Origin: Methanothermobacter sp. | GTDB lineage: Archaea > Methanobacteriota > Methanobacteria > Methanobacteriales > Methanothermobacteraceae | Assembly (NCBI RefSeq): GCF_030055425.1 | Contig: NZ_JASFYE010000004.1 | Location: 33,591-97,590 of the forward strand | Reading direction: 5' to 3' | DNA length: 64,000 nt | In this document: positions 6,141 to 45,700 of the stretch, in pieces | How positions within the stretch are numbered: the first letter of the stretch is position 1 | Layout: the number at the start of each line of letters is the position of its first letter | Notes under the pieces: model-generated | The model's database searches: none | The model's input: only the letters and a program-made list of their open reading frames with translations | What the model was told of the DNA's origin: nothing | Made by a program: the position numbers and the translations under genes

Positions 6141-6284
6141 ATTAAGTTTCCTATGTTCTATCAATCAAGAGGATGGTAACTTGCCCATGATTAAGTTTCC
6201 TATGTTCTATCAATCAAGAGGATGGTAACTTGCCCATGATTAAGTTTCCTATGTTCTATCAATCAAGAGGATGGTAACTTGCCC
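6141..6284 (+). repeat. 49-bp tandem repeat, three copies, each with a ribosome site and TTG start
   Basis: Copies run 6141-6189, 6190-6238 and 6239-6284 (the last is cut short where the gene diverges). They are identical over their shared length. Each contains GAGG followed eight bases later by TTGCCC. In copies 1 and 2 the TTG opens a 16-codon frame ending in TAA, one base before the next TTG; in copy 3 the TTG at 6279 opens the downstream gene. The unit is not a multiple of three, which is why the copies do not fuse in frame. Confidence 0.95.
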
Positions 6285-6986: not shown

Positions 6987-8399
6987 TCACCCTGAGAACT
7001 GGAAAAGTGAAGTCTGCTTCTCACGAGGTTTATCATAGTCTGAATCGGATCCTGAGGATTTATCATCACTGGATTCACTGATTTTACCTTTAGATGACTT
7101 TCTGTCCTTATCTGTGCTCCGGGACTTCTTCTTCTGGATGTAAAGTGGGCCGGTTTTATCAGACTTTTTACGTGTCTTCTTCGCTTTGGGAGCCTTTATC
7201 TTTCTTTTCCTGAACAGTTTAACCTCTTCGTCTGTGAGTTCAAGGAATTCCTTCATCTCATAGGCCATTTCATCGTTCTCGAATATTATCTCCAGGTAGG
7301 GGAACATTGAAATTGCAACCTTGGGTGATATGTGCATCCTCTCAGCCATCTTACCTGCAACACTGTCACGGAGGCTCCTCTGCTTGCGTGTTCTCCCGAG
7401 TAGCCTGAAGGAGGATGAACCTGTGTACCTGACGAATTTCCTGTAGGTCTTCTCCTTGGCGAGGGCGACACCGGGACCCATGAGATCAGAGGCGTAGCGC
7501 CAGTAGGTGTAGTTCCTGCTCCTCACAGCACGGCCAAAGAACATATCTGCATGTGATAGCATGTCATAGGCCCTGCTGATCTCATGGGGCTTTTCATATT
7601 CCCTTGGAACATTCTCTGCAATGAATTCAAGTACAAGTGTCGGGTCATCATCCACCCTCATGGCCTCCCTGATCTTTGAGAAGTCGCGGCTTTTCAGAAC
7701 TGCCCTCACGGCGTCGAAGAGATTGGACGTGGAATCCTTCTCACCCATGCTGAGGAGTTCCTCACCAACCCGCTCCTCACCACCGGCCACCGCCTCAAGG
7801 TCATTGATGGCAGAACGCAGATCCCCATGGGACCTCTTTGCAAGTTCCTTGAGGACATCATCGGGGCATTCGATACCCTCTGCCCGGCATATCCGTTTCA
7901 GGGCCGCGGCTATGGATGATGTGTGAACCTTCCTGATGTTTATGACCTTACACTTTGGTTTGATGCTCTGAAGTCTCTTGCTGTAGGGGTCATTGGCGGT
8001 TAACACAATCGGATGTTTGCTCTCCCTGAGTATCCTGTTTATGGCCTGGACACCGCCCCGGTCCTCGTTGCCGTGTATACCATCCACCTCGTCGAGGATG
8101 ATCAGTTTGAGGTCATGGTTGAAGAGGGAGTGGGTGGCTGACGCCTCACCGGCAGTCCTCATTATGGCATCCTGTGAGCGCTTGTCACTGGCATTGAGTT
8201 CAAGGGTGTCTGAGAACTCCCTACCTATTATGTGTGCTATGGTTGTCTTCCCGGTACCTGGCGGGCCCACAAGGAGGAGGGGGGGCTGGGGTTCGCCTGC
8301 CTTCCACCCCTTGATCCACTCCTTTATCTCGGCTATGGCCTTCTGGTTCCCGGCCACCTCATCAAAGGTTCTGGGCCGGTACTTCTCTGTCCATGACAT
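6987..8399 (-). CDS. rfcL: Replication factor C large subunit
   Basis: The clamp-loader large subunit opens the PCNA ring with the small subunit so that PCNA can be loaded on primed DNA. The 470-residue protein has the N-terminal RFC box ([15 protein letters not shown]), Walker [10 protein letters not shown] at 45-53, Walker B with DEVD at about 103-106, and sensor and collar regions. The last ~80 residues are Lys/Ser-rich and end in QTSLFQF, a PCNA-interacting (PIP) box. It lies 12 bases downstream of rfcS on the same strand, in the usual methanobacterial pair. Confidence 0.97.
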
Positions 8400-15572: not shown

Positions 15573-16250
15573 ATGAAGATCGCAGTTCTTGGTGGAACAG
15601 GTGACCAGGGCCTTGGACTTGCCCTGAGACTTGCATTAGCAGGAGAAGAAATAATCATAGGTTCAAGGGACGCTGAAAAGGCTGTAAGTGCAGCTCAAAA
15701 GGTCCTTGAAATCGCTGGAAGAGATGACCTCAAGGTTAAAGGTGCCACAAATGCTGAGGCCGCTGAGGAGGCTGAGGTGGCAATCCTGACAGTGCCATTG
15801 CAGGCACAGATGGCCACACTGGGCTCAGTTAAGGAGGCAATTAAGGGCAAGGTGCTCATAGATGCCACTGTACCCATTGACAGCTGCCTCGGGGGCTCAG
15901 CTGTTAGGTACATTGACCTCTGGGATGGCTCAGCTGCCGAGAGGGCTGCAAGGTTCCTTGAGGATCAGGGCACAAGGGTCGTGGCGGCATTCAACAATAT
16001 AAGCGCATCAGCCCTCCTTGACATAACAGGACCTGTGGACTGTGACTGCCTCATTGCCTCAGACCACACTGATGCCCTTGATATTGCATCTGAACTCGCA
16101 GAGAAAATAGATGGTGTGAGGGCCATTGACTGCGGTGGCCTTGAGAATGCAAGGGTCATTGAGAAGATAACACCGCTGCTCATAAACCTCAACATCAAAA
16201 ACAGGATTAGGAATGCGGGTATAAGGATTACGAACCTGCCAGAAGGATAG
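15573..16250 (+). CDS. npdG: F420H2:NADP+ oxidoreductase
   Basis: This 225-residue enzyme moves hydride between reduced coenzyme F420 and NADP, supplying NADPH for biosynthesis. The dinucleotide-binding start MKIAVLGGTGDQGLGLALRLA and the F420-contacting segments FNNISASALLD and DCDCLIASD match the family, as does the length. The C-terminus NRIRNAGIRITNLPEG and its flanks are duplicated after the stop codon (see the 60-bp repeat). The ATG at 15573 follows GGTAACATGGTGATATT. Confidence 0.95.
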   Translation: MKIAVLGGTGDQGLGLALRLALAGEEIIIGSRDAEKAVSAAQKVLEIAGRDDLKVKGATNAEAAEEAEVAILTVPLQAQMATLGSVKEAIKGKVLIDATVPIDSCLGGSAVRYIDLWDGSAAERAARFLEDQGTRVVAAFNNISASALLDITGPVDCDCLIASDHTDALDIASELAEKIDGVRAIDCGGLENARVIEKITPLLINLNIKNRIRNAGIRITNLPEG

Positions 16251-16300
16251 AAGGTTAAAAACAGGATTAGGAATGCGGGTATAAGGATTACGAACCTGCC
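16197..16300 (+). repeat. 60-bp-period duplication of the npdG 3' end
   Basis: A 44-base segment at 16197-16240 is repeated without change at 16257-16300. The period of 60 keeps frame: after the npdG TAG (16248-16250) the second copy again encodes KVKNRIRNAGIRITNLPE and ends with TGA. The duplication therefore gives npdG two consecutive versions of its C-terminus, separated by a stop codon. Confidence 0.95.
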
Positions 16301-16341
16301 TGAATGATATAAATCTGATATAAATATATAAGTTGATTGCA

Positions 16342-34323: not shown

Positions 34324-35508
34324 TTAGAAGAGTTTGCCCAGTTTAATGAGGGCCTTTGGCGAGACCTTTATGAGCTTCTTAACAAGTTCTGTGGTGCTCA
34401 CCTTCTCAAACTCAACATCCTGGAATGCCTCTGCGATTGAATCGAGTTCACTGTCACTGAGTGTAAGCATGTAGTCCTTGACCTTGAGGTACCTGTCTAT
34501 CTCCTTCCCGATCTCCTCACGGCAGAGCCTCTCGTATTCACTGAGCCTCTTTTTGCTGACATCACCCTCACTGACCGCTGCAGCAGCAACCCTTCCTGCC
34601 AGCATACCACCGGTCATACCGCTTATTATACCACCACCTGTGAGGGGGTTCACCTGACCTGCAGCGTCCCCCACAACCATGAGGCTGTCTGCCACAAGTT
34701 CCTTTGGCATTCCACCAACCGGATCCCCACCTATGTTGAGTTCAACAGGCTGGGCGTTCCTTGTTGCCGGGCATGACTCAACGAATTCAAGCAGGTGCTC
34801 ATAGGCGCTCTTATCGGTCTCTGTTGAGAGAACACCCAGGCCCACGTTGGCGATGTCATCACCCTTTGGGAAGATCCAGGCGTATCCACCGGGGGCCACG
34901 CTTCCAAAGTAGAATTCGATGCAGTTATTGTCCTCCATCTCCACTCCGACCATCTCGAACTGGGCCGCTGACTCCATGTCCTTGGGCCTTGTGGCTGTGT
35001 TTAGGCCGGCCCACCTTGCAACCCTTGACTCGGGGCCGTCGGCTGCAATAACTATCCTGGCCTTTATCTCAAACTCCCTGCCCATGCACTCTGCGCTGAC
35101 AAGGTATCCATCTTCGGTCTTCTCCATACCGGTTGCAAGGGTCTTCACCATGATCCGTGAACCTGCCCTCGCGGCGTCCATTGCCATGTGCTTGTCAAAG
35201 ACCTTCCTCTCAAGTATGTATCCTGCCTCTGGCAGCTCCACCTTATCTGAGGTCAGCCATACATCTGTGCCATTGGGGGAGACCAGACGCACACCATCAA
35301 GTTTCTTTGTGATCCAGCGGGGGTCTGGCTCTATCCCCAGGGACTCGAGGCCCCCAACAGAGACCCCCTCGGCGCACCTCTTTGGGGCCCCTATCTCTGA
35401 TTTCTTGTCAATGAGGAGTACACTTGCACCGCCCATGGCGGCGTGTTTTGCTGCTGTTGAACCGGCTGGTCCAGCGCCAATCACAAGGACATCAACTTCA
35501 GTCACCAT
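34324..35508 (-). CDS. Digeranylgeranylglycerophospholipid reductase (geranylgeranyl reductase)
   Basis: GGR hydrogenates the double bonds of archaeal isoprenoid lipid chains. The 394-residue flavoprotein has the FAD-binding VLVIGAGPAGSTAAKHAA, the CAEGV motif in KRCAEGVSVGGL, the YxWxFP signature in GYAWIFPKG and the GDAAGQVNPLTGGGI motif. Start ATG 35508 has AGGTGAT upstream; a GTG at 35517 overlapping the ferredoxin stop is possible. It follows directly on the ferredoxin gene, its likely electron donor. Confidence 0.93.
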   Translation of the reverse strand: MVTEVDVLVIGAGPAGSTAAKHAAMGGASVLLIDKKSEIGAPKRCAEGVSVGGLESLGIEPDPRWITKKLDGVRLVSPNGTDVWLTSDKVELPEAGYILERKVFDKHMAMDAARAGSRIMVKTLATGMEKTEDGYLVSAECMGREFEIKARIVIAADGPESRVARWAGLNTATRPKDMESAAQFEMVGVEMEDNNCIEFYFGSVAPGGYAWIFPKGDDIANVGLGVLSTETDKSAYEHLLEFVESCPATRNAQPVELNIGGDPVGGMPKELVADSLMVVGDAAGQVNPLTGGGIISGMTGGMLAGRVAAAAVSEGDVSKKRLSEYERLCREEIGKEIDRYLKVKDYMLTLSDSELDSIAEAFQDVEFEKVSTTELVKKLIKVSPKALIKLGKLF

Positions 35509-35513
35509 GTCAA

Positions 35514-35675
35514 TCACCTCTCAAGGGCCCTAACAGGGCACACCTGTATGCATATGTTGCATTCCCTACACTGATCCTCTGAAAATTTCAGGGAATTCTC
35601 CCTGACCTCTATGAGGTTCCGTGGGCACACACCTGCACATTCCCCACAGAACATACACCATTCCTTCACCTTCAT
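35514..35675 (-). CDS. 2[4Fe-4S] ferredoxin, partner of geranylgeranyl reductase
   Basis: The 53-residue protein has two cluster motifs, CMFCGECAGVCP and CRECNICIQVCP, and little else. Its TGA lies within the ribosome-site region of the geranylgeranyl reductase gene, so the two are transcribed together. In Methanosarcina a neighbouring ferredoxin is required for full activity of this reductase, which supports the pairing here. Start ATG 35675 gives MKVKEWCMFC; the longer frame to 35708 has no family support. Confidence 0.9.
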   Translation of the reverse strand: MKVKEWCMFCGECAGVCPRNLIEVRENSLKFSEDQCRECNICIQVCPVRALER

Positions 35676-35739
35676 GGTTATCAACCTAAAATCAATTCTA
35701 CAGATCATGAATCTTTAATCATGCGGGTGTTTATACTTT

Positions 35740-35838
35740 GGGGAGGAAGTATATATATAGTTCCCAAAAACCAGTAAACCCCTACAGTGAAAGGGAACCA
35801 TTCACGGGGAGGAAGTATATATATAGTTCCCAAAAACC
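35740..35838. repeat. Two 33-bp copies, period 66, each with a TATA box
   Basis: An identical 33-base segment occurs at 35740-35772 and 35806-35838. Its core reads AGTATATATATAGTTCCC on the plus strand, and CTATATATATACTT on the minus strand is a strong archaeal TATA box. It lies upstream of the minus-strand ferredoxin-reductase operon, so this is probably a duplicated promoter giving two start sites 66 bases apart. The spacer also contains AAGGGAACC, complementary to the GGTTCCC-like part of the copies. Confidence 0.9.
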
Positions 35839-36498: not shown

Positions 36499-38577
36499 TC
36501 ACTGGTTATGTGATCTCTCCTTTAGGAGCCCCCTCACCTCACCCATGAACTTTTCTTCACCGACACGTTTCATGGTTGACGCGAGCCTCTCCCTCTGCGG
36601 CTTACTGGCATACCTGGTGTAGACCCTGATAACAGCGTCTATGTATTCCAGTATCTCATCAACAGTGTCAACACGGGTCTTTATACCCTCAACCAGTTCT
36701 CTACCAGCCTTACCGCCTATGTAGATTATGTAACCCTCTTCACGGGCACTCCTTGCAGTGTGTGGGCACTCCCTTATGCATTTACCGCAGCCCACACAGA
36801 GGTCATGGTTGGTGTAGGATGTCTCACCACGCACGCTGATGGCCTCCACCTTGCAGACCTCGAAGCACCTGCCGCAGCCGTTACAGATTTCCTCAACCGT
36901 CTCAGGGAACTCAACACCCGCGACACCCACATCGTGGATCTGGGGCCTCATGCACCTGTTTGGACAGCCACTCACCGCTATCTTGAACTTGTAGGGTGCT
37001 GGCATCTCCCTGAACCTATCCTCTATGGCACTGCAGATTGCTGTGGTGTCTATGATCCCGCTGCCACAGTTCTCCTTACCTGGACAGGCAAGTGTGGCCC
37101 TTACAAGGGGACCCTCTGAGCCTGTGAGGAGCCCTGCGGAGTTGAGTTCAGCAACGGCGTCCTCAACGTCAAAGCCACTCACATCGTGGAGCTCATAGGA
37201 TCCCCTGTTGGTGACCTTGATTCGTGCACCGTATTTTTCGGCGATCCTCACAAGTTCCTTCACCTCTGAAGGGCTGTACCAGCCTGATGGCCGGGCCCTG
37301 ACCCTTATGAAGTAGGTACCATCGGCCCTCCTGGATACGCCAGGGTAATCTGAGGTCCAGTAGAAGGAGATGTATTCACCACTCTTTCTCCTTCTCTCAA
37401 GTTCCCTCTGGAATCTTCTGAGTTTCAGGTCCCTCATCTTCTCTATTTTTGCGGTGTCTGCACCCTCCCTGAGTTCAACTGCACCGGCTATTTCAGCGCC
37501 CCTCCTGGTTCTCACTATGATGGTTGAGTAGCCCTCTGGGCTTCCAGCGGAGCCCACAGAGACGTCTGCAAGGCGAGCGTCAAAGTCCCTGCAGGATCTG
37601 CAGCCCTCTGAGATCCTGATGTCCCTGAGGTTCAGGGTTTCCCTCCTATCACCAAGGTCAACCTCAAGTTTACCCCTCCGGATGCTGAATTTTTCAACGT
37701 CCTCCATTCTGATACCATTTTCCCTCAGCACCTTTCTGAGGTCGCCATACTCGAATTTCTCGGTGCAGAAGAGGCCTATAAGGTAACGTATCTCGGGGAG
37801 TTTCACGGGTTTACCCTTTCTTCCAAGTTCCAGGTCATGCTTTGCAAGGTAGGGGAAGTACTGGAGTTTCCTGAGGCCGTTTATCTGGCAGGGAAGCCCA
37901 ACAACTGCCACCCTTTCAATTTCAAGGTCTCCGGCTGTTCTCAGTGCTTCAAGGGTGGATATGCTGTACTTTGACCCGCTTGTTTCCTCAAGGTCCTCTG
38001 CGGTCTGTACAAGGAGTGATACAGGTTTCCAGTGTTCGTCACCCACGACTATGGCGCCGTCGATTTCACCCTTCTCAAGGAGGTGCCTGAGGAATGATGT
38101 CACCACGCCACCGTCCTGGCCCCTGACGGGTCCCCTTCCATGGTAGACTTTCTCCTGGAACTTCTCCCTTATGCTGATCTGGTAACCGTCTGAGGAGACC
38201 CTGGGGCATACCTCGAAGCACATACCGTGGCCGTTTCTGAGGCACTCCTCCCGGAGCTCTGGGCGTCCGTCGAAGGATATGATGTTGTTGGGGCATATAA
38301 CGGCACAGGTACCGCACCTTGCGCAGATTCCTGACTCCACGATCTTTCCAGGTTTCCATTTCCTCTCTGAGGGGTACATCTCTGCTATTTTCTCTGCTGG
38401 GCCCATCCTCTCCAGGGCCTCGGCTATCACCTCCTTGGTGACATCGGTTTTTCTTGATGCGGCTATTGCCTCTGCACTGTCAAGTATGTGGGTTTTGAGT
38501 TCACGGGCAACCTCCTCCCTTTCCTCTGGGGGTAGTCTAAGGGTCGCCCTTTCTATGAATTCATCAAGTTTATTCAT
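36499..38577 (-). CDS. fsr: F420-dependent sulfite reductase with an N-terminal HAAS-like helical domain
   Basis: Fsr reduces sulfite to sulfide with F420H2. The 692-residue protein has, after an unusual N-terminal helical domain (1 to about 72; LPPEEREEVARELKTHIL, then ALERMGPAEKIAEMYP), ferredoxin-type clusters (CARCGTCAVICP), an FrhB/FpoF-like F420-oxidising domain, and a siroheme sulfite reductase domain with the coupled cluster and siroheme motifs CPGKENC and SGCPNRC. An inserted ferredoxin pair (CNGCGRCFEVCK, CVGCGKCIRECP) follows. The N-terminal part resembles the HAAS/permease-prefix domains found next to PadR regulators, and a padR gene is indeed directly upstream, overlapping by four bases (ATGA). 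Such a fusion is not a standard Fsr architecture. Confidence 0.88.
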   Translation of the reverse strand: MNKLDEFIERATLRLPPEEREEVARELKTHILDSAEAIAASRKTDVTKEVIAEALERMGPAEKIAEMYPSERKWKPGKIVESGICARCGTCAVICPNNIISFDGRPELREECLRNGHGMCFEVCPRVSSDGYQISIREKFQEKVYHGRGPVRGQDGGVVTSFLRHLLEKGEIDGAIVVGDEHWKPVSLLVQTAEDLEETSGSKYSISTLEALRTAGDLEIERVAVVGLPCQINGLRKLQYFPYLAKHDLELGRKGKPVKLPEIRYLIGLFCTEKFEYGDLRKVLRENGIRMEDVEKFSIRRGKLEVDLGDRRETLNLRDIRISEGCRSCRDFDARLADVSVGSAGSPEGYSTIIVRTRRGAEIAGAVELREGADTAKIEKMRDLKLRRFQRELERRRKSGEYISFYWTSDYPGVSRRADGTYFIRVRARPSGWYSPSEVKELVRIAEKYGARIKVTNRGSYELHDVSGFDVEDAVAELNSAGLLTGSEGPLVRATLACPGKENCGSGIIDTTAICSAIEDRFREMPAPYKFKIAVSGCPNRCMRPQIHDVGVAGVEFPETVEEICNGCGRCFEVCKVEAISVRGETSYTNHDLCVGCGKCIRECPHTARSAREEGYIIYIGGKAGRELVEGIKTRVDTVDEILEYIDAVIRVYTRYASKPQRERLASTMKRVGEEKFMGEVRGLLKERSHNQ

Positions 38578-38915
38578 TGATATTCCTCCATTGTGGTTTC
38601 AATTTCATTGAGGGCCTGGTTCACTGCCCTGAAAAATTCAAGCCATTTTTTTCTGACCTTCTTACCGTAATCGGTGATTCTGTAATATTTTCTGGGCCTT
38701 GCCTCACCTGTCATCCACGTGCTTTTGAGGATTCCCTCCCCCTCGAGTCTCCTCAGAAGTGGGTAGATGGTTCCCTCCTCGACCCTGAACCCTGATTCTT
38801 TGAGTTTTTTCACGATTTCATAGCCGTAAAGTTCCCTTTCAAGGAGGCAGACCACTGCGAGCTGTATGGCCCCGCGCCTGATTTCCTTTTCGAATCTTTC
38901 ACATATGCCACCCAT
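38574..38915 (-). CDS. PadR-family transcriptional regulator
   Basis: The 113-residue protein is a short (class II-like) PadR regulator: the winged helix contains LYGYEIVKKLKESGFRVEEGTIYPLLRRLEGEGIL and TGEARPRKYYRITDYGKKV, followed by one dimerising helix. It is the first gene of a two-gene operon with the sulfite reductase and lies just downstream of a 31-bp dyad that overlaps the expected transcription start, so autorepression is likely. The ATG at 38915 follows GAGGGTCATGAG. The inducing ligand is unknown; sulfite is an obvious candidate. Confidence 0.92.
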   Translation of the reverse strand: MGGICERFEKEIRRGAIQLAVVCLLERELYGYEIVKKLKESGFRVEEGTIYPLLRRLEGEGILKSTWMTGEARPRKYYRITDYGKKVRKKWLEFFRAVNQALNEIETTMEEYQ

Positions 38916-38932
38916 CTCATGACCCTCATATT

Positions 38933-38963
38933 ACACAGTTATGTGTTGTGCACATTACTGTGT
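38933..38963. promoter_or_regulatory. 31-bp dyad operator of the padR-fsr operon
   Basis: Arms ACACAGT-T-ATGTG (38933-38945) and CACAT-T-ACTGTGT (38951-38963) are complementary at 12 of 13 positions around a five-base centre. The inner ATGTG/CACAT halves resemble PadR-type sites. On the minus strand it follows the TATA box at 38972-38981 and covers the likely transcription start, the standard place for an archaeal repressor. Confidence 0.75.
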
Positions 38964-38971
38964 GGTAAACA

Positions 38972-38981
38972 GTATATAATC
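38972..38981 (-). promoter_or_regulatory. TATA box of the padR-fsr operon
   Basis: On the minus strand the sequence reads ATTATATACT, about 57 bases before the padR ATG. The start of transcription would fall at about 38950, in the middle of the dyad. The rest of the spacer to 39172 contains only AT-rich sequence and the promoter region of the histidine kinase. Confidence 0.6.
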
Positions 38982-45568: not shown

Positions 45569-45700
45569 TGATGTGATTCAGAATTATCAAGTGGAACCAT
45601 GATGGGTATTGACGACCAGAAAATGGAAAAACTTTGATGTGATTCAGAATTATCAAGTGGAACCATGATGGGTATTGACGACCAGAAAATGGAAAAACTT
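45569..45700 (+). repeat. Perfect 66-bp tandem duplication across the MNT gene start
   Basis: Copies at 45569-45634 and 45635-45700 are identical. Each includes the leader, the ATGATG start and the first 12 codons of the nucleotidyltransferase. In copy 1 the frame ends at a TGA formed at the junction, giving a 12-residue peptide (45599-45637); copy 2 opens into the full gene. A TATA-like CTTATATATG (45561-45570) lies immediately before copy 1. Confidence 0.97.

Follow-up and report, generated by a model that had tools for sequence, protein, structure and literature searches.

An F420-dependent sulfite reductase with an N-terminal HAAS domain beside padR in Methanothermobacter: a candidate enzymatic sensor for a HAAS–PadR dyad

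Introduction

Sulfite is toxic, and the F420-dependent sulfite reductase (Fsr) destroys it. In the Methanothermobacter DNA analysed here (the window, meaning the whole stretch of 64,000 nucleotides), the fsr gene adjoins a padR gene and encodes an N-terminal extension that a sequence-only reading had likened to the HAAS-type domains found beside PadR regulators. The locus raises the question of whether a metabolic enzyme may itself report its state to its own repressor, or titrate it, as that reading proposed.

The HAAS–PadR dyad is proposed to signal in the manner of a two-component system (PMC11237479; PMC12419801). The HAAS fusions described are to membrane, Toastrack and pentapeptide-repeat proteins (PMC11237479) and to VanZ (PMC12419801). 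In the literature searched, neither a HAAS fusion to a metabolic enzyme nor direct biochemical proof of the dyad, including of a contact that alters DNA binding, was found. MTH280, the counterpart of MTBMA_c07290, is annotated as the F420-dependent sulfite reductase of Methanothermobacter, and both species studied can use sulfite as a sulfur source (PMC3087415). MTH280 is probably the orthologue of the gene described here; a HAAS domain and a padR neighbour go unmentioned in the Fsr literature searched, including that on MTH280.

The padR–fsr locus

36499..38577, minus strand: HAAS-Fsr gene, 692 aa (open reading frame, Pfam, match to the Methanocaldococcus jannaschii Fsr structure 7np8)
38574..38915, minus strand: padR of the HAAS-linked type, 113 aa (PF03551, E=3.4e-22)
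38585..38589, minus strand: GGAGG, the ribosome-binding site for fsr as read from the sequence, inside the end of padR

The four-base overlap of padR and fsr that had been noted is indeed there, as a shared ATGA at 38574–38577 on the minus strand. Upstream of the pair lies a divergent sensor-kinase-like gene and downstream a convergent gene for a small lipoprotein-like product, so that a two-gene operon of padR and fsr is the simplest reading. Translation from an internal M67, close to where the Methanococcales proteins begin, would yield an Fsr free of HAAS, but is unlikely because a good upstream ribosome-binding site is missing. A spurious gene fusion is ruled out, since the HAAS-Fsr reading frame is kept across six species.

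Further features of the window were recorded alongside. A geranylgeranyl-reductase-like flavoprotein gene overlaps a small ferredoxin gene (34324–35708); the two likely encode a reductase of archaeal lipids and the ferredoxin that supplies its electrons, judging by sequence resemblance. Between the ferredoxin gene (35514–35708) and the lipoprotein-like gene (35961), two identical copies of a 33-bp repeat lie 66 bp apart at 35740–35838, each with the near-palindrome GGAAGTATATATATAGTTCC. Tandem repeats occur at 6141–6284 (49-bp unit, 2.9 copies) and 45569–45700 (66-bp unit, 2.0 copies), both 100% identical, and at 16197–16309 (60-bp unit, 1.9 copies, 96%).

The enzyme core

38179..38346, minus strand: N-terminal 2×[4Fe-4S] ferredoxin domain, residues 78–133 (Pfam, 7np8 match)
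37438..38124, minus strand: F420H2-oxidase (FrhB-like) domain, residues 152–380 (PF04422, PF04432)
36532..37326, minus strand: sulfite reductase domain with inserted ferredoxin, residues 418–682 (PF03460, PF01077, Fer4)

Residues 73–687 match the M. jannaschii Fsr (7np8) with 983 bits and the Methanothermococcus Fsr with 954 bits, and the predicted structure model matches both solved structures. Pfam finds FrhB_N/C, NIR_SIR_ferr and NIR_SIR, and the order of ferredoxin, FrhB-like domain and sulfite reductase with inserted ferredoxin is that of Group I Fsr. Sulfite is bound in the M. jannaschii enzyme by Arg355, Arg423, Lys460 and Lys462 (PMC10229431); this set recurs in the window protein as R425, R493, K530 and K532, and Arg388 of the M. 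jannaschii enzyme as R458, at an offset of 70. By these marks the enzyme is a Group I, sulfite-type Fsr, apparently intact, and the first identification as an F420-dependent sulfite reductase holds for a standard core.

The N-terminal HAAS domain

38362..38577, minus strand: HAAS domain, residues 1–72 (PF22564 match, AlphaFold helices)
38395..38403, minus strand: GxP-equivalent motif G59-P60-A61, degenerate in the window (orthologue alignment)

The HAAS profile PF22564 matches residues 10–66 with E=4.1e-10 and 40.3 bits, against a curated cut-off of 27 bits, which confirms the view of residues 1–72 as a HAAS-type domain; of the Pfam families in question, the match is to PF22564, and PF08006/DUF1700 itself gave none. 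Only seven matches above the cut-off occur among 152 Methanobacteriota genomes, namely the N-termini of six Methanothermobacter Fsr proteins (38–51 bits) and a membrane protein of one further genome, G150 (58 bits). Among unrelated sequences the best score is 17.6 bits, so far below these values that a chance match is excluded. Direct BLAST and profile comparison of the window domain with that of G150 was weak, and the homology therefore rests on the Pfam profile. A search of PDB sequences with the domain brought up no solved relative, and Foldseek with the domain alone gave no significant match in the PDB, its best hits being insignificant histone-fold pieces.

HAAS domains consist of three helices, the third kinked at a conserved GxP, which is the proposed site of the PadR groove (PMC11237479). 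AlphaFold places helices at residues 3–12, 17–41, 48–58 and 61–67 (pLDDT about 80), a predicted three-helix arrangement in which G59-P60 interrupts the last helix. Four of the six orthologues (G004–G007) have an intact GxP, as GSP or GPP, and G001 and the window protein read GPA; the intact form is confined to padR-bearing species. Judged by the profile match, the identification of the N-terminal extension as a HAAS domain is solid, as is its pairing with padR.

Coupling of HAAS and padR across genomes

In all six species padR adjoins the HAAS-Fsr gene with the ATGA overlap, and each of the seven HAAS genes of the 152 genomes has padR as a neighbour. The proposed HAAS–padR neighbourhood thus holds in every species with HAAS. 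The pair in G150 is an ordinary padR and HAAS membrane protein pair with the same gene order and overlap as padR–fsr. With a profile built from the six fsr-linked PadRs, the PadR paired with HAAS in G150 reaches 73 bits, and none of 17 further PadRs from the phylum exceeds 43. By this score the fsr-linked PadR is of the HAAS-linked type; tree support for the grouping is weak (72/35). The six HAAS-Fsr fusions form one clade (support 99/99), and the association with padR therefore counts as a single event in evolution, represented by six genomes.

Beside every other Fsr gene whose flanks were read, padR is absent, save for a weak candidate at locus L125. There, just downstream of a HAAS-less Methanopyri Fsr, the opposite strand carries a PadR-like open reading frame (about 7003–7389, E=8e-4). 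In both congeners that lack a full fsr, G002 and G003, this padR is missing as well. Both genes are lost in G002. In G003 a deletion (L075, G003:C1:285000-297000, around 5835) has taken out padR together with the promoter and residues 1–522 of Fsr, joining the neighbouring kinase gene to an fsr remnant from residue 523 onward. No HAAS protein was found in the 14 genomes behind the other loci; HAAS fusions to other enzymes may exist outside Methanobacteriota, where the survey covered 14 genomes.

Promoter and putative operator

38973..38979, minus strand: TTATATA, the TATA box of the padR–fsr operon (kept in the six-species upstream alignment)
38933..38963, no strand assigned: 31-bp dyad, putative PadR operator, 12/15 pairs, reading ACACAGTaATGTGcacaaCACATaACTGTGT on the minus strand

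The dyad ACACAGTAATGTGCACAACACATAACTGTGT starts nine bases after TTATATA. Its pairing of 12/15 was reached by 18 of 2000 Markov shuffles, and a search with its first 24 bases, allowing up to three mismatches, found it to be unique in the genome. It is retained in G005 (26 of 31 bases) and G006 (22 of 31), as in none of 200 shuffles, in upstream DNA that has otherwise largely diverged and much of which cannot be aligned. Upstream of padR-less fsr genes, no comparably strong match to the dyad was found (best 19/31). Lying where transcription is expected to start, the dyad points to repression, and the padR–fsr operon is probably repressed by its own product through this putative operator.

Extensions without padR

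The sequence-only reading would have been refuted by a similar extension in all Fsr proteins that have no PadR neighbour. The survey of Fsr N-termini gave a divided answer: a degenerate, homologous extension does occur without padR, but not in all Fsr, and its HAAS signature is lost. In rumen-type Methanobrevibacter and kin, Fsr has about 70 extra N-terminal residues and no padR beside its gene; in all, 17 Fsr proteins without adjacent padR keep an extension. The extensions of subgroups B and C are homologous to HAAS (hhalign 91–97%); that of subgroup D is linked through B (88%), with 14% in direct comparison to HAAS. None of the six padR-less B/C extensions scanned has a Pfam HAAS match, against six of six orthologues with padR; the padR-less extensions have lost the GxP and gained indels. 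An extension common to all Fsr is ruled out, for it is missing in Methanococcales, Methanothermus and the clade of G123, G132, G133 and G134. Two Methanobrevibacter genomes (sp. 87.7, G008, and a relative, G018) carry two divergent Fsr copies each (L060 and L061; L054 and L055); these fall into different subgroups of the Fsr tree, and both have the extension without adjacent padR.

Among padR-bearing species, HAAS differs at 19/73 and the core at 168/616 positions (ratio 0.95), against 240/570 in the extension and 898/4920 in the core without padR (ratio 2.31, eight largely independent pairs), a difference of z=4.1 in a contrast that is also one of thermophiles and mesophiles. The dN ratios agree, being about 1.1 in deep padR-bearing pairs and mostly 1.8–3 without padR, with one exception among padR-bearing species, the shallow comparison of G007 with its sisters (1.8–2.3). 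As judged from these rates, HAAS appears to be under the same constraint as the enzyme core only next to padR, as binding to PadR predicts, and the faster change elsewhere is what the loss of a binding partner predicts. In most pairs of padR-less extensions dN nevertheless stays below dS. Survival of the extension without padR under such constraint implies that the domain does not serve PadR solely and that some function remains.

Placing every extension-bearing Fsr in a single clade gives a marginal fit (p-AU 0.046), and a clade that includes the short clade as a loss is allowed (p-AU 0.28). One fusion, followed by loss of padR and of the domain, is a possible history in the light of these trees.

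Regulatory model and its alternatives

From this coupling we infer signalling from the enzyme to PadR. PadR would block initiation by binding the dyad at 38933–38963; Fsr, as a cytosolic tetramer, would dock PadR through its HAAS domain; and the substrate or redox state of Fsr would alter how HAAS is presented. PadR could be kept off the DNA, with HAAS as an anti-repressor, or, less likely, be aided onto it, and the level of Fsr would track the sulfite load. Fsr would occupy the place that a membrane sensor holds in other HAAS systems. In Listeria, LftR represses lieAB with or without LftS, a DUF1048 protein (PMC4517056), and the DUF1048 family is counted as HAAS (PMC11237479). By analogy, PadR probably represses alone, and HAAS would be more likely to relieve repression than to aid it. 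An autoregulated operon with Fsr as the sensor arm of a HAAS–PadR dyad is, on balance, probable. The complete chain, in which the catalytic state of Fsr sets the presentation of HAAS and thereby the occupancy by PadR of its own operator, with the sensor arm decaying in place in mesophiles that have no padR, is more tentative and may well not hold in full. Counted against Fsr as the sensor are the decay of the window GxP to GPA, repression by LftR without LftS, and the extensions kept without padR, by which the domain may have another role.

HAAS might instead bind PadR by copy number only, new Fsr titrating PadR or PadR capping Fsr, with no catalytic or redox read-out and the sulfite signal routed otherwise. 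Overlapping, translationally coupled genes would yield near 1:1 synthesis, and in the predicted structure HAAS appears as a separate unit followed by the poorly predicted residues 71–128. The low model confidence there is uninformative on coupling either way, and HAAS is elsewhere described as fused to sensor modules (PMC11237479). This explanation has a low probability. Similarly unlikely, and given slightly less weight, is a HAAS-derived structural add-on serving assembly, stability or cofactor loading, with PadR alone controlling the operon through a ligand of its own. Its persistence in the 17 padR-less proteins, still with some constraint, and the LftS-independent repression by LftR (PMC4517056) would suit such a role. 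Against it, the padR-less extension changes at 2.3 times the rate of the core, has acquired indels and has lost the GxP, and the Methanococcales Fsr works as a tetramer without any extension.

That a generic three-helix extension merely happens to adjoin padR is very improbable. Three-helix folds are common, and the domain has neither a significant Foldseek match in the PDB nor a solved sequence relative; yet the six Pfam matches reach 38–51 bits where the background in 152 genomes does not exceed 17.6, and the coupling to a HAAS-type PadR is strict. Fsr as the sensor arm of the dyad is the reading preferred here.

Comparison with known systems

The Group I Fsr proteins of M. jannaschii and Methanothermococcus (7np8, 7npa; PMC10229431) are 63–66% identical to the window protein over residues 73–687 and share its domains and sulfite-binding residues. 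They differ in that they begin at the ferredoxin domain, without HAAS, and no padR is adjacent in the Methanococcales loci read. With the HAAS–PadR dyad (PMC11237479) the locus shares an N-terminal HAAS, an adjacent, overlapping, stand-alone padR and, in the predicted structure, a helix break at the GxP-equivalent site. The partners in that dyad are membrane, Toastrack and pentapeptide proteins, whereas here the partner is a soluble siroheme and flavin enzyme.

A dyad with a cytosolic enzyme in the sensor role, which we infer for Fsr, would be a new form. The HAAS–PadR dyad has been put forward as an alternative to two-component signalling. Its mechanism would become directly testable in vitro in a heat-stable, soluble pair of proteins that has a single operator and a defined substrate. 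If the model is true, this archaeal circuit signals in one step, with a soluble redox enzyme as its direct sensor.

The glutamine synthetase of Bacillus is a trigger enzyme that acts on TnrA and GlnR. The two cases would share the principle of a metabolic enzyme that signals its own state to a transcription factor, but in Fsr the contact would use a dedicated, fused signalling domain.
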